This document shows positions 22,967 to 28,527 of a DNA stretch of 59,087 bases, in pieces. The notes below the pieces were generated by a model that was not told the DNA's origin, did no database searches, and was given only the letters and a program-made list of their open reading frames with translations. The translations under genes were made by a program, and so were the position numbers. The stretch's first letter is position 1, and the number at the start of each line of letters is the position of its first letter. Source of the stretch: an uncultured Nitrosomonadales bacterium (lineage in GTDB: Bacteria; Pseudomonadota; Gammaproteobacteria; Burkholderiales; Methylophilaceae); assembly GCA_913048465.1 (NCBI GenBank), contig CAJWVO010000009.1:1-59087 (forward strand), in the 5' to 3' direction.

Positions 22967-24844
22967 ATGAAATTAAATAAAATTAAATTAGCTCTTGGTT
23001 TAGTAGCTGGTTTTGCTGCTGCAGCACCTATGGTTGCTTCAGCTGCTGCTGATCAAGAAAAAGCTATCAGTGATCCAAATAACTGGGCTCACCCACGTGG
23101 TAACCACTCAAATAACGGTCACTCAGCTTTAACACAAATCAACAAAGGTAACGTTAAGAACCTTAAAGCTGCATGGACATTCGCGACTGGTGTTAACCGT
23201 GGTCACGAAGGTGCACCACTAGTTATTGGTAGCACAATGTACGTTCACACAGCGTTCCCAAACAACGTTTACGCTTTAGACCTTAACAACGATCAAAAAA
23301 TCGTTTGGTCATACTTCCCAAAACAAGATCCAAGCGTTCAAGCAGTATTATGCTGTGACAACGTTAACCGTGGTCTAGGTTTTGGTGACGGCAAAATCCT
23401 TCTTCAACAGAACGACGGTATCATGGTTGCTTTAGATGCTAAAACTGGTAAAGAAGTATGGACTGCTAGAATTACAGATCCTAAAGTTGGTGCTACAAAC
23501 ACATCAGCTCCACACGTAATCAAAGACAAAGTTCTTCAAGGTTGCTCAGGTGCTGAATTTGGTGTTCGTTGCTTCTTCACAGCTCTTAACCTTAAAGATG
23601 GTTCAGTAGCTTGGAAAGCATACTCAACAGGTCCAGATAAAGAAGTTCTTATCGGCGCTGACTTTAACAAAGACACACCTTTATACTCAGCTCTATCAGT
23701 TTACGAAGATGTAAACGGTGGTAACAAACAAGGTGGTTCTTTCAAAAAAATCCCAACTGACCAACTTAAAGGTGGTGAAGCTGACCTTGGTGTTAAAACA
23801 TGGTTAAAACCACAAGCTGTTAAAGATGGTTGGCAACATGGTGGTGGCTCTGTATGGGGCTGGTGGCCATATGATGCAAAAACAAACTTAGTGTACTACG
23901 GTACAGGTAACCCATCAGTTTGGAACCCAGACGTACGTCCAGGTGACAACAAATGGTCTATGACAGTTTTTGCTCGTGACTTAGACACAGGTATGGCACG
24001 TTGGGGTATGCAAATGACACCACACGATGAGTGGGATTACGACGGTATTAACGAAGTTATCTTATTCGACAAAGGTGGTAAAACATACGCTTGGCACCAC
24101 GATAGAAACGGTTTTGCTTACACATGGCAAGCTGACAACGGTGTTTTAGTTGCTGCTGAAAAAGTTCACCCATTCGTGAACTGGGCAACAGACGTTGATA
24201 TGAAATCTGGTGTTCCAAACAAAGTTGCAGAACACGCAACTCACCAAGACTACAACACTAAAGGTACATGTCCAGCTGCTTTAGGTACTAAAGACCAACA
24301 GCCTGCTGCATACTCACCTAAAACAGGTTTAGTCTACTCACCAATGAACCACGTATGTATGACATACGAGCCAGTTGAATCTAAATACGTTGCTGGTCAG
24401 CCATGGGTTGGTGCGACATTAACAATGTTCGCTGGTCCTGACGGTGTTATGGGCGGTTTCGCTGCTTATGACCCAATGACTAACAAAAAAGTATGGTACA
24501 ACAAAGAGAAATTCTCAGCTTGGGGCGGTGCTTTAACTACTGCTTCAGACTTAGTTTTCTACGGTACTTTAGATCGTTGGTTCAAAGCTCTTGACGCGAA
24601 AAGCGGTAAAGAACTTTGGAAATTCCAAGTTGGTTCAGGTGTGATTGGTAATGCATTCACATATGCACACAAAGGTAAACAACACGTTGGTGTCCTATCA
24701 GGCATCGGTGGTTGGGCTGGTGTGGCTATGAACCTTGGTCTAACAAATGACACAGACGCACTTGGTGCTGCTGGTGGTTATAAAGAACTAACAAAATACA
24801 ACGCTGCTCCTGGCGGTGGTGCATTAACAGTATTTAGCTTATAA
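22967..24844 (+). CDS. xoxF: Lanthanide-dependent PQQ methanol dehydrogenase XoxF
   Basis: Periplasmic quinoprotein that oxidises methanol using PQQ and a rare-earth ion, passing electrons to cytochrome XoxG. It is a 625-residue eight-blade propeller with a signal peptide (cleavage after VASA near residue 26) and the vicinal disulfide Cys129-Cys130. WDYDG contains catalytic Asp357 and the extra Asp359 that marks lanthanide enzymes; calcium-type MxaF has Ala there. Codon choice differs from neighbours, with strong use of AAC, GGT, GTT and CAC, which suggests very high expression. It is followed by its own terminator. XoxF4 would be the expected subtype for Methylophilaceae, but I cannot prove that here. 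Confidence 0.97.
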   Translation: MKLNKIKLALGLVAGFAAAAPMVASAAADQEKAISDPNNWAHPRGNHSNNGHSALTQINKGNVKNLKAAWTFATGVNRGHEGAPLVIGSTMYVHTAFPNNVYALDLNNDQKIVWSYFPKQDPSVQAVLCCDNVNRGLGFGDGKILLQQNDGIMVALDAKTGKEVWTARITDPKVGATNTSAPHVIKDKVLQGCSGAEFGVRCFFTALNLKDGSVAWKAYSTGPDKEVLIGADFNKDTPLYSALSVYEDVNGGNKQGGSFKKIPTDQLKGGEADLGVKTWLKPQAVKDGWQHGGGSVWGWWPYDAKTNLVYYGTGNPSVWNPDVRPGDNKWSMTVFARDLDTGMARWGMQMTPHDEWDYDGINEVILFDKGGKTYAWHHDRNGFAYTWQADNGVLVAAEKVHPFVNWATDVDMKSGVPNKVAEHATHQDYNTKGTCPAALGTKDQQPAAYSPKTGLVYSPMNHVCMTYEPVESKYVAGQPWVGATLTMFAGPDGVMGGFAAYDPMTNKKVWYNKEKFSAWGGALTTASDLVFYGTLDRWFKALDAKSGKELWKFQVGSGVIGNAFTYAHKGKQHVGVLSGIGGWAGVAMNLGLTNDTDALGAAGGYKELTKYNAAPGGGALTVFSL

Positions 24845-24920: not shown

Positions 24921-24962
24921 TGTATAATCACAAACGGTAAATAATTTAAGGAAAGTTTGATC

Positions 24963-25841
24963 ATGTTGAAAAAAGGATTATTAGGAATTTTGGCGGTATT
25001 GGCATCTCCATTTTCGATAATGGAAGTCTATGCAAATGATGTTTTAAATGATGGTAAAGTTGGCGAAGTAAGACGGGTACCAGGAGATAAAGAGTTTAAA
25101 GTGTGTGCCGATTCTAATAACATGCCATACTCGAATGACAAAGGTGAGGGTTTTGAAAATAAGATTGCTGAACTTCTTGCAGCAGACATGGGAAAAGAAC
25201 TATCTTACCAATACTGGTTTGATCGCTTTGGTTACTTAAGAAATACTTTAAATGCATGGCGCTGTGATTATCTGATTGGTACTAACACAACTTATGATGC
25301 CGTGGATACAACCAAACCTTACTACCGTGCTGGACATGTGTTCATCTATCGTAAAGATAGTGGCCTAGATATTAAAGATTTTAAATCAGAAGATTTACGT
25401 AAAGTTGAAATTGGACTTAAAGATAAAAGTCCAGCAGCTGTTGCTTTAAATGATCATGACCTTATGGCGAATGCAAGGCCATACCGTATTCAACGTGACC
25501 TCACAGAATCACCAGGTAAATTAGTGCAAGATGTGATTGATGGTGTGGTTGATGTGGCGATTGAATGGGGTCCAATTGGAGGTTACTATGCAAAACAATC
25601 GGGTGTTGATTTGGTGGTAGTACCTGTTCCAGAATATGAGCAGGTCAAACAAACTGGGAAAACGTATTGGAATATTTCAGCCGGTGTTCGAAAAAGAGAG
25701 GCTGAGCGACGTGATGAAATTGAAGCTGTAATTATGAGAAATAAAGATAAAATCTTAAAAATTCTTGATGACTATGGCATCCCACACGCAGAACCAGTTT
25801 TTGGAAGCAACTTAGACGGTTATAAGCGCCATAAGAACTAA
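24963..25841 (+). CDS. xoxJ: XoxJ, periplasmic binding-protein-like accessory of methanol dehydrogenase
   Basis: A 292-residue exported protein of the solute-binding-protein family 3 fold, the type found beside PQQ dehydrogenases and thought to help XoxF activation or maturation. It has a signal peptide (MLKKGLLGILAVLASPFSIM, cleavage near YAND). Typical stretches are FKVCADSNNMPYSNDKGEGF, WRCDYLIGTNTTYDAVDTTKPYYR and VDVAIEWGPIGGYYA. A TTG at 24957 is in frame, but I chose ATG 24963, which has AAGGAAAG about seven bases upstream. It lies between xoxF and xoxG, each unit bounded by a terminator. Confidence 0.94.
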   Translation: MLKKGLLGILAVLASPFSIMEVYANDVLNDGKVGEVRRVPGDKEFKVCADSNNMPYSNDKGEGFENKIAELLAADMGKELSYQYWFDRFGYLRNTLNAWRCDYLIGTNTTYDAVDTTKPYYRAGHVFIYRKDSGLDIKDFKSEDLRKVEIGLKDKSPAAVALNDHDLMANARPYRIQRDLTESPGKLVQDVIDGVVDVAIEWGPIGGYYAKQSGVDLVVVPVPEYEQVKQTGKTYWNISAGVRKREAERRDEIEAVIMRNKDKILKILDDYGIPHAEPVFGSNLDGYKRHKN

Positions 25842-26050: not shown

Positions 26051-26542
26051 ATGTTTTCAAAGAAAGTAGTAGTTTCATCACTATTAGCTGCATTAGTTGG
26101 AGTCTCAACATTAGCTTATGCTAACGTTAAGTTCGTTAAAACAACTGACAATAGTGAAATTAAATTCCCTAAAGAAGCACTAGTTGGTACAGATGCTGAA
26201 AAAGAATTCTTAGCCACTGGTAAAAACATTTACGTTGGCGATGCTGAAGCAATTAAAATGGGTAAAAAACGTTACAACCTATGGTCATGTACACAGTGCC
26301 ACGGCCCAACAGCTAAAGGCCAAGTGGGCCCAGGTCTAACTGGCCCTAAATATAACTATGCTAAAGACACAACCAACAAAGGTATGTTTGAAACTATCTG
26401 GGCTGGTACAAACGGCGGTATGGGCGGTAAAGGCTACGGCATTATGGCGGCAGATGATGGTGTAACTGTTGACGAGTTACTTAAAATCATCGCTTTCGTA
26501 AGAAGTAACAGTAAAGATTTAACTGGTAACGAAGGTCTGTAA
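26051..26542 (+). CDS. xoxG: XoxG, c-type cytochrome electron acceptor of XoxF
   Basis: A 163-residue periplasmic monohaem cytochrome c. The signal peptide is residues 1 to about 24 (VVSSLLAALVGVSTLAYA). Haem attaches at Cys80-Thr-Gln-Cys83-His84, and Met residues in the NGGMGGKGYGIM loop are candidates for the distal ligand. It accepts electrons from XoxF and passes them toward the terminal oxidase. An AGGAGA ribosome-binding site precedes the ATG, and a palindrome lies upstream. Codons 26-161 are base-for-base identical to the next gene downstream; only the signal peptide and last two residues (Gly-Leu) differ. Confidence 0.94.
   Translation: MFSKKVVVSSLLAALVGVSTLAYANVKFVKTTDNSEIKFPKEALVGTDAEKEFLATGKNIYVGDAEAIKMGKKRYNLWSCTQCHGPTAKGQVGPGLTGPKYNYAKDTTNKGMFETIWAGTNGGMGGKGYGIMAADDGVTVDELLKIIAFVRSNSKDLTGNEGL
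26126..26533 (+). repeat. 408-bp exact direct repeat, copy 1 (in xoxG)
   Basis: Bases 26126-26533 are identical to 26783-27190 at an offset of 657, checked line by line, including all synonymous positions. The repeat covers 136 codons, from the start of the mature cytochrome to the penultimate conserved Glu. Sequence on both sides diverges at once. Confidence 0.97.
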
Positions 26543-26578
26543 TTCTTCGCGACTAACTAGTTTCATCTAGTTTATAAT

Positions 26579-26610
26579 AACGGCTGATATTTTATCAGCC
26601 GTTTTTTTTT
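26579..26610 (+). terminator. Rho-independent terminator after xoxG
   Basis: An 11-bp stem AACGGCTGATA/TATCAGCCGTT (26579-26589 and 26593-26603) has a TTT loop and a long T run. It lies only 17 bases before the next gene, so the lipoprotein cytochrome must be expressed by read-through or from a start close to the TATAAT at 26573-26578. Confidence 0.94.
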
Positions 26611-26626
26611 GTGATCTGGGAGGGTT

Positions 26627-27193
26627 ATGAAGTTTATTAGTGTGTGTTTACTATCACTTTTTTTGCTGGCATGTTCAAAAAATAATAGTGATCCAGTAAT
26701 TAAAGATATTAACCTTACTTCGGAAGATCAACCTCATTCTCATGATCAAGCCTCAGATATCTTGGACAAAAAACAAGAAACTGTTAAGTTCGTTAAAACA
26801 ACTGACAATAGTGAAATTAAATTCCCTAAAGAAGCACTAGTTGGTACAGATGCTGAAAAAGAATTCTTAGCCACTGGTAAAAACATTTACGTTGGCGATG
26901 CTGAAGCAATTAAAATGGGTAAAAAACGTTACAACCTATGGTCATGTACACAGTGCCACGGCCCAACAGCTAAAGGCCAAGTGGGCCCAGGTCTAACTGG
27001 CCCTAAATATAACTATGCTAAAGACACAACCAACAAAGGTATGTTTGAAACTATCTGGGCTGGTACAAACGGCGGTATGGGCGGTAAAGGCTACGGCATT
27101 ATGGCGGCAGATGATGGTGTAACTGTTGACGAGTTACTTAAAATCATCGCTTTCGTAAGAAGTAACAGTAAAGATTTAACTGGTAACGAATAA
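26627..27193 (+). CDS. Lipoprotein-anchored duplicate of the XoxG cytochrome
   Basis: A 188-residue c-type cytochrome whose domain (residues 53-188) is an exact copy of XoxG. The N-terminus is different: a lipoprotein signal (MKFISVCLLSLFLLACS, lipidated Cys16, Ser at +2, which suggests outer-membrane sorting) and a linker of about 36 residues with a PHSHDQ stretch. Haem attaches at Cys107-x-x-Cys110-His111. It lacks the last two XoxG residues. GGGAGGG lies unusually close to the ATG. The gene lies 11 bases before ndh and may be co-transcribed with it. It probably serves as a tethered electron acceptor for XoxF; that role is inferred. Confidence 0.9.
   Translation: MKFISVCLLSLFLLACSKNNSDPVIKDINLTSEDQPHSHDQASDILDKKQETVKFVKTTDNSEIKFPKEALVGTDAEKEFLATGKNIYVGDAEAIKMGKKRYNLWSCTQCHGPTAKGQVGPGLTGPKYNYAKDTTNKGMFETIWAGTNGGMGGKGYGIMAADDGVTVDELLKIIAFVRSNSKDLTGNE
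26783..27190 (+). repeat. 408-bp exact direct repeat, copy 2 (in the lipoprotein cytochrome)
   Basis: Second copy of the repeat at 26126-26533. The stop codon follows at once (27191-27193), whereas copy 1 continues for two codons. Perfect identity implies a very recent duplication or continuing gene conversion. The gap between copies is 249 bases and contains the xoxG terminator and the new signal-linker coding region. Confidence 0.97.
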
Positions 27194-27204
27194 AGGAATA
27201 TCAT

Positions 27205-28527
27205 TTGGAAAATATACATCGGGTAGTGGTCGTTGGTGGTGGTGCAGGTGGACTGGAGCTAGTAACAAAATTAGGCAATACCCTAGGCAAGAAAAAGGTT
27301 GCTGAAATTATATTAATTGATGCCAAAAAAACTCACGTCTGGAAGCCATTACTGCATGAGATTGCAGCAGGTAGTTTAAATCCTGACAAAGATGAATTGG
27401 AATATCTGGCTCAAGCGCATTGGCATCATTTTAAATTTCGATATGGACGTGTTCATCAAGTAGATAGTAAGAATAAAACTGTATCTATTGAACCAACCTA
27501 TGATATCGATGGAACTGAAATCATACCTTTGCGTAAAATTAAATATGACACTTTAGTCTTGTCTGTTGGAAGTACAGTCAATGATTTTAATATCCCAGGT
27601 GCAAAAGAATTTGCAGTGGCCCTAGATACCCAAGATCAGGCTGAACGTTTTCATCAAAAATTACATAATTCAATTTTAAGAGCCCAAACCCAAAAAGGTT
27701 CGGTAAGGCCAGGTCAATTAGAGGTAGTGATTGTAGGAGGCGGAGCCACTGGGGTTGAGTTGGCTGCTGAGCTTCACAAGGCAACTCGTGAGATGACAGC
27801 TTATGGATTAGATCGAGTCAATCCTGATCGAGATATCAGTATTTACCTTGTTGAAGCAAGCAATCGATTACTTCCAGCTTTACCACCAAAAATTAGTGCG
27901 TCTGTGGAATCCGAATTACACAAACTCAATGTAAAACTATTTTTAGGGGAGCGTGTGACTAAGGTTACTAAAGAGGGTATTGAGACTCATTCCGGAAAAA
28001 AAATTCTTTCCTCGCTCGTGGTGTGGGCTGCAGGAATTAAGGCCCAAGAATTTTTATCTCAGATTAGAGGGATAGAGACAAATTCTATTCATCAGATCAA
28101 GGTTGAATCGACATTGCAAAGTACATCAGATACTAATATTTTTGCATTTGGCGACTGCGCAGCATGTCCAGTTAAGCCCGGTTCTGATCTATTAGTGCCT
28201 CCTCGAGCTCAGGCTGCACATCAACAAGCTTCTATGCTGAAAAAATCTATTAAATCTAAGGTATTAAAACCTTACAAGGCATTACCCAAGTATGTTTACA
28301 AAGATTATGGTTCTTTAATAAATTTAGGAAGATATTCAACTGTAGGTAATTTAATGGGCTCACTCCTTGGGGGGAGTATGTTTGTTGAGGGATTAATTGC
28401 TCGCCTAATGTATCTTATGCTATATCAGATGCATTTGTCAGCCTTGCATGGGGTGGTGAGTGTTGTCTTTAGGTTGTTAGGTAAGACTATTTCCAGAAAA
28501 ACTGAGGCGAGAGTAAAACTGCATTAA
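27205..28527 (+). CDS. ndh: Type II NADH dehydrogenase (NDH-2), FAD-dependent
   Basis: Single-subunit, non-proton-pumping NADH:quinone oxidoreductase, 440 residues. The FAD site is VVVVGGGAGGLELV at the N-terminus and the NAD(H) site is VVIVGGGATGVELAAELH near residue 175. IFAFGDCAACP is the C-terminal FAD motif, and the C-terminal amphipathic region binds the membrane. The start is TTG 27205, seven bases after AAAGGA; no ATG fits. It follows the lipoprotein cytochrome by 11 bases. It re-oxidises NADH, including that made by formate dehydrogenase. Confidence 0.93.
   Translation: MENIHRVVVVGGGAGGLELVTKLGNTLGKKKVAEIILIDAKKTHVWKPLLHEIAAGSLNPDKDELEYLAQAHWHHFKFRYGRVHQVDSKNKTVSIEPTYDIDGTEIIPLRKIKYDTLVLSVGSTVNDFNIPGAKEFAVALDTQDQAERFHQKLHNSILRAQTQKGSVRPGQLEVVIVGGGATGVELAAELHKATREMTAYGLDRVNPDRDISIYLVEASNRLLPALPPKISASVESELHKLNVKLFLGERVTKVTKEGIETHSGKKILSSLVVWAAGIKAQEFLSQIRGIETNSIHQIKVESTLQSTSDTNIFAFGDCAACPVKPGSDLLVPPRAQAAHQQASMLKKSIKSKVLKPYKALPKYVYKDYGSLINLGRYSTVGNLMGSLLGGSMFVEGLIARLMYLMLYQMHLSALHGVVSVVFRLLGKTISRKTEARVKLH

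Follow-up and report, generated by a model that had tools for sequence, protein, structure and literature searches.

The XoxG haem domain is encoded twice, base for base, at the xox locus of the window analysed here (the whole 59,087-nucleotide stretch of DNA), once behind an ordinary signal peptide and once behind a predicted lipoprotein signal. We consider it highly probable that one XoxG haem domain is carried in this way on a diffusible and on a predicted tethered carrier, and that the two genes are an old pair equalised by gene conversion limited to the domain.

Five genes are consecutive in the window, and all features described below lie on its forward strand. An open reading frame at positions 22967–24844 encodes a xoxF-type PQQ methanol dehydrogenase of 625 residues (TIGR03075, 602 bits, above the cut-off) and is followed by the gene for a xoxJ-like periplasmic binding protein of 294 residues at 24957–25841 (TIGR03871, 265 bits, above the cut-off). 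The xoxG frame at 26051–26542 encodes a secreted, cytochrome cL-like protein of 163 residues with an ordinary signal peptide. The frame after it, at 26627–27193, encodes a cytochrome of 188 residues, here called lipo-XoxG, that consists of a lipobox signal, a linker and the xoxG domain. The gene for an NDH-2-like FAD/NAD oxidoreductase of 440 residues (27205–28527, with a TTG start as listed; PF07992, 171 bits) begins 11 bp past the lipo-XoxG stop codon.

Reading of both copies and a scripted comparison bear out the exact duplication that had been noted: positions 26126–26533, within xoxG, are identical to positions 26783–27190, within lipo-XoxG, over a run of 408 bp at a spacing of 657 bp. 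A repeat-finder run reports the same 26126/26783 pair with a length of 300 nt, and no other direct repeats of at least 60 bp were found in the window (seed 20). The exact run begins at the first codon common to both genes after their leaders, and at its end xoxG continues with Gly-Leu-stop and the second frame stops. The limits of the repeat are thus the limits of homology, and the repeat comprises the entire shared domain. A match of this length is beyond chance. The organism's own genome assembly (46 contigs, 88% complete) contains exactly two copies of the domain at E ≤ 0.001, with no third copy.

Both copies contain a CTQCH haem site, the CxxCH pattern of a mono-haem c-type cytochrome, and the PF00034 match scores 31 bits against a cut-off of 21.3. 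Scores against the MoxG equivalog model TIGR03872 are 89.5 and 89.0 bits, below its cut-off of 147.8, as are those of seven other cytochromes of the family tested against it (68–106 bits). The proteins are therefore not filed as MoxG, and the name XoxG follows from resemblance and from the locus, where the pair is linked to xoxF and xoxJ. The domain matches structures 2d0w, 2c8s, 7c90 and 2gc4 (E values 2e-20 to 2e-16); cytochrome cL (MxaG) and c551i are among the matched molecules, but none of the nine is named a lipoprotein.

The second cytochrome begins with MKFISVCLLSLFLLAC (residues 1–16, positions 26627–26674) followed by SKN, and so has a charged start and a hydrophobic stretch that leads into the lipobox LLAC and its terminal Cys. 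A polar linker of 36 residues, two of them His, connects this Cys to the domain (26675–26782). The lipoprotein signal with Ser at +2 and the His-containing linker of about 36 residues had both been predicted and were confirmed from the reading frame. Among family loci, a lipobox pattern is present in 67 of 72 last-in-locus (L) copies, locus L101 being left out, as against 3 of 70 soluble (S) copies. Three of the five L copies that lack the pattern (L012, L071 and L077) are lipoprotein-like by eye, and the other two (L099 and L100) have truncated or unusual starts; the three S copies that match it (L043, L063 and L096) resemble ordinary cleavage sites. The pattern also matches the lone xoxG of G016, G026 and HTCC2181 (L022, L025, L027 and L067) and the S copy of L059, all of which read by eye as ordinary signals, that of HTCC2181 not being clear-cut. 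The lipobox Cys is invariant in all 16 aligned proteins, and it lies 15–40 residues from the domain, Cys counted, in 67 relatives and the window's own copy. The residue that follows it is Ser in the window copy, as throughout the 13 genus copies; among the 67 L copies it is Gly in 30, Ser in 22, Asn in 12 and Asp in 3. From these features we infer that the second cytochrome is lipidated. The xoxG product would be secreted and diffusible, and the second product would be a periplasm-facing lipoprotein on a flexible linker. The proposal that one haem domain exists in two forms, one of them behind a predicted lipoprotein signal, is supported.

A search for the domain among genomes of the same genus found matches in all 31. 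The cytochrome pair is present in 13 of them, including KB13, LSUCC0717, LSUCC0665 and LSUCC0401; 14 have no lipoprotein gene, their single xoxG lying immediately upstream of the NDH-like gene, and in the remaining four (G004, G011, G015 and G020) a contig end falls at the locus, so that they are counted as neither. HTCC2181 has one copy. KB13 and LSUCC0717 belong to the marine OM43 lineage (PMC10872708), which makes the window OM43-like.

Across the Methylophilaceae, 178 of 187 genomes match some form of the domain. Distinct loci with a match number 95, after omission of 11 (L033–L042 and L067) that duplicate genus genomes, and 69 of the 95 contain at least two cytochrome genes. Sixty-four of these 69 pair loci have xoxJ upstream and an NDH-like gene downstream (65 have xoxJ upstream, and in 67 the NDH-like gene follows). 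Four of the other five are truncated at a locus end or interrupted by a run of N; the fifth, L101, is a different place. Records of Methylophilus, Methylotenera, Methylovorus, Methylobacillus and Novimethylophilus are represented among the pair loci. Within a sample of 399 genomes of the order, 16 match at E ≤ 1e-15, and the three of these that lie outside the family are weak (38–42% identity). The lipoprotein cytochrome that the original prediction proposed to look for beside xoxG in other Methylophilaceae was thus found, in conserved synteny across the family. Its signal had been called new, a description that does not hold for a leader type that recurs through the Methylophilaceae. Judged from this conservation of sequence and order, the two cytochrome genes are old neighbours and not a fresh duplication.

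Old neighbours with identical domains were compared in a subclade of eight genomes (G000, G014, G001, which is KB13, G003, G005, G008, G024 and G013). Within a genome, the S and L domains (396 nt) are 100% identical in G000, G014, G005, G008, G024 and G013, 98.7% identical in G003 and 94.2% identical in KB13; between the eight genomes, S–S identities are 80–95% and L–L identities 80–96%. The six identical pairs contain no synonymous codon differences, as compared with 12–56 between any two of the eight genomes, and their exact S–L runs extend for 401–413 bp. At 103 of the 131 sites that vary among the eight genomes, S equals L in every genome. The true S–L pairing is the best of all 40,320, with 28 mismatches where the mean is 383, and pairings that match no genome with itself have at least 303. 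S and L domain identities covary across the 28 genome pairs, which are non-independent, with r 0.99. The lipoprotein leader and linker, 61–98% identical among the eight genomes, correlate with the downstream gene at r 0.95 and with their own domain at r 0.83 over the same 28 non-independent pairs. Greater likeness within than between genomes, extending to synonymous sites in conserved synteny, is therefore found throughout the subclade, KB13 being an exception in degree: its 23 S–L differences are scattered, and its copies are 94.2% identical to each other and 93–96% identical to those of its nearest relatives, which makes it a weak case. In the KB13 locus (L119, 919–1863), xoxJ reads mostly as N, and xoxJ comparisons fail there. 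In G003 the exact run ends 28 nt short, and five differences cluster near the 3′ end in what looks like the edge of a conversion tract.

Trees of the domain agree with this pattern. An AU test in which six sets of identical rows were unconstrained rejects a single clade of L domains for the 13 genus pairs (p 0.0007) and for the eight subclade pairs (p 0.013), p values of this kind being strict only for groups named before tree inspection. Sameness is not the rule throughout the genus: the pairs of G025 (78%), G009 (67%), G023 (67%), G007 (65.9%) and G006 (62%) have diverged, so identity of the two domains is not obligatory.

A recent tandem duplication confined to this genome, in which the domain of copy 1 was fused to a lipoprotein leader, would account for perfect identity that includes synonymous sites. 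We regard it as exceedingly improbable, because relatives share the leader type, spacer, terminator and neighbouring genes, because the five diverged pairs exist, and because the variation of leader and linker among the eight genomes parallels that of the downstream gene. Were the duplications independent, each would need to have produced the leader, spacer and terminator afresh; conversion restricted to the domain accounts for all of these observations. Of the two origins originally offered for the identity, recent duplication or gene conversion, the subclade comparison thus favours conversion and the family-wide synteny speaks against recent duplication. The accompanying expectation that the domain is always more similar within a genome than between genomes was upheld in the eight-genome subclade, but 'always' fails for the genus, given the five diverged pairs and the single xoxG of 14 of the 31 genomes.

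That a short-read assembler produced the repeat, or levelled its two copies, is likewise very improbable. The window's genome is indeed a draft in 46 contigs, and nine OM43 isolates, LSUCC0717 among them, were assembled with SPAdes from Illumina PE150 reads (PMC10872708), so the last one or two isolated S–L differences could be hidden in such assemblies. Pairs are nevertheless present in 13 genus assemblies, and the near-identical pairs of KB13 and G003 retain 23 and five differences. Levelling hides rare single differences; it cannot give both copies of a genome the same genome-specific divergence of 5–20%, and we continue to trust the pattern.

Under domain-limited conversion, one domain in the subclade would be overwritten with the other, so that each genome carries its own version in both genes, and the leader, linker and spacer would escape conversion and evolve with the rest of the locus. 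The process could be purely mechanical: near-identical direct repeats at a spacing of 657 bp would recombine often, their identity would sustain itself until divergence put an end to the exchange, and selection would be blind to sameness. We give this an even chance. The diverged pairs that survive in sister lineages favour it, and they indicate that sameness may be mechanical and not needed; the patchy distribution of S- and L-type residues over 11 diagnostic columns is also in its favour. On the other side, the pair persists despite the risk of deletion between repeats, which suggests that presence of the lipoprotein may be selected in the subclade. Phase variation by way of the repeat was considered and rejected by reasoning only, since deletion of the intervening part is irreversible.

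The family tree points to older layers of exchange. Among 164 protein rows, 25 soluble copies form a distinct type (SH-aLRT 100), and a second type (SH-aLRT 100) contains 72 lipoprotein-labelled domains, 46 soluble copies and 21 lone copies, its soluble and lipoprotein rows interleaving by lineage. These family trees come from quick searches of few columns with SH-aLRT support only and an unsettled root, and their S and L labels were set by locus order, those of four lone lipoprotein copies by hand. For 45 family pairs of the second type, an AU test rejects a single soluble clade (45 S versus 45 L; p 0.001, four sets of identical rows being unconstrained). Signal peptides are alike between the two soluble types (mean score 44, versus 20 when shuffled and 20–21 against lipoprotein signals), so one soluble gene frame, with a shared signal type, has carried two distinct domains. 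Most simply read, this means that in some lineages the neighbour's domain replaced the soluble one, although with the root unsettled the opposite polarity would fit too. At the 11 diagnostic columns the subclade domain combines S- and L-type residues in a patchwork common to both copies; the soluble copy of G025 has much of this patchwork and its lipoprotein copy does not. The patchwork is a hint that conversion may have run in both directions. Four lone xoxG genes of Methylopumilus type (L044, L045, L108 and L109) have leaders that score 44–55 against 10 soluble leaders and 20–26 against 13 lipoprotein leaders, and their domains are placed among lipoprotein domains (support 91). This combination would fit a loss of the tethered gene that followed domain sharing.

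A wider reading, which we put forward tentatively as a possibility short of evenly balanced, is that the xox locus harbours a domain-swap system of two chassis, a secreting and a lipid-tethering gene that bear one evolving haem domain, with conversion both ways and repeated replacement of the soluble domain in the history of the family; the repeat might then be a reason, too, why Methylopumilus and some OM43 bacteria have lost the tethered form. If this were true, a single adaptation of the redox partner of XoxF would reach both locations.

The spacer between the two cytochrome genes contains a hairpin followed by a T run that resembles an intrinsic terminator (26579–26603), and this is adjoined by a TATAAT motif at 26573–26578, a candidate −10 box of the lipoprotein gene; a scan against the promoter consensus returned none with a −35 element at this motif. 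By a lenient script, 68 of 71 family spacers between xoxG and the lipoprotein gene have a hairpin and T run, a count in which the matches of L101, L065 and L075 are doubtful and L012 is scored as lacking a hairpin although one is present. TATAAT lies just before or inside the hairpin in all 13 genus spacers, as against a mean of 1.2 of 13 after letter shuffling, the 13 spacers being related and so not representing independent events. The motif occurs in 31 of the 71 family spacers, and it lies beside or inside the hairpin loop in L043, L060, L063, L066, L077, L078, L102–L104 and L106 as well. The arrangement suggests a terminator that may double as promoter of the next gene, and xoxG and the lipoprotein gene would be transcribed largely apart. 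Transcripts of xoxG in the OM43 isolate NB0046 were reported at 10–11 per cell, a figure that does not distinguish the two forms (PMC5120137).

The two forms share haem and docking surface, and both should accordingly be able to accept electrons from XoxF. The tethered form may be a minor, separately expressed and fixed acceptor or relay that would pass electrons to other c-type cytochromes and a COX1-type oxidase. It is also conceivable, if unlikely, that the lipoprotein has a separate job, as acceptor for another dehydrogenase or as partner of the NDH-like protein, and shares its domain through conversion only. The terminator-like hairpins, which suggest separate expression, and the NDH-like gene that follows 67 of 69 pair loci would suit such a role. 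But 19 of the 22 loci with a lone secreted xoxG also have an NDH-like gene after it (four loci with a lone lipoprotein copy being left out), and the adjacency of the NDH-like gene is thus independent of the lipoprotein; in addition, pelagic Methylophilaceae are reported to have XoxF4-1 as their only XoxF (PMC6794327).

Further cytochrome c matches in the window's own genome are small frames, a 207-residue frame with two matches and a 386-residue frame beside COX1. COX1 matches were found in 28 of the 31 genus genomes, with one in the window's own genome; a difference in terminal oxidase between pair and single-copy genomes was therefore dropped as a candidate explanation, the three misses (G006, G016 and G018) being only 61–84% complete. 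By the Lol sorting rule of Escherichia coli, lipoproteins without Asp at +2 go to the outer membrane. The window protein has Ser there, which makes anchoring in the outer membrane somewhat more likely, and only somewhat, than an inner-membrane site by the oxidase. An outer-membrane anchor could hold the haem near XoxF, from which electrons would move on to mobile cytochromes or return to diffusible XoxG. The LolB model PF03550 matches 17 of the 31 genus genomes, and in the eight-genome subclade it matches only G013, below the cut-off. That G013 frame, itself only LolB-like, has relatives in all eight subclade genomes (33–36% identity in the other seven), and the idea that absence of LolB signals inner-membrane anchoring was dropped for this reason. 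One such LolB-like protein is encoded at G000:C3:97147–97692; PF03550 finds nothing in those seven genomes.

A pair of diffusible and tethered carriers is known in cytochromes c2 and cy; cy is tethered by a protein anchor rather than by lipid, and the two are not known to be kept identical. The likeness to the present case lies in parallel diffusible and tethered electron carriers in one chain (PMC7876108). The second XoxG has a lipobox at its N-terminus, unlike cy, and may work like the c2/cy pair without being a member of it. Long-lasting concerted evolution of duplicated prokaryotic genes has been described for tuf, mtrA, cycA/cycB and others, among them tandem copies of mtrA with fusion and domain shuffling and the cycA/cycB cytochromes of Nitrosomonadales (PMC6053082); xoxG does not figure among the consulted rows of its table. 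As in the paralogues of that study, the copies examined here are closer within a genome than to their orthologues, at synonymous sites as well, and stand in synteny; in contrast to them, conversion appears to be confined to one domain of a secreted and a lipoprotein gene, and leaders and linker escape it. XoxG1 and XoxG2 lineages have been described in Methylophilaceae, beside xoxF and co-expressed with it (PMC5723320), and likely include the genes studied here; the main text of that paper sets out two lineages and does not use the word 'lipoprotein'. We found no description of a lipoprotein XoxG or of its conversion in the open-access literature searched, a scope outside which most subscription journals lie.

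The pair offers a natural example in which conversion is restricted to a single domain, and a genus that includes identical pairs, diverged pairs and single copies makes both the cause and the use of sameness testable. The exit of electrons from the lanthanide methanol dehydrogenase is poorly known in these methylotrophs. A lipoprotein cytochrome that stands beside xoxF family-wide would be a specific membrane-bound candidate in this chain, its tethering being predicted, and one that can be knocked out. This lipoprotein, kept beside xoxF in most of the family loci examined, is the part most worth experiment.
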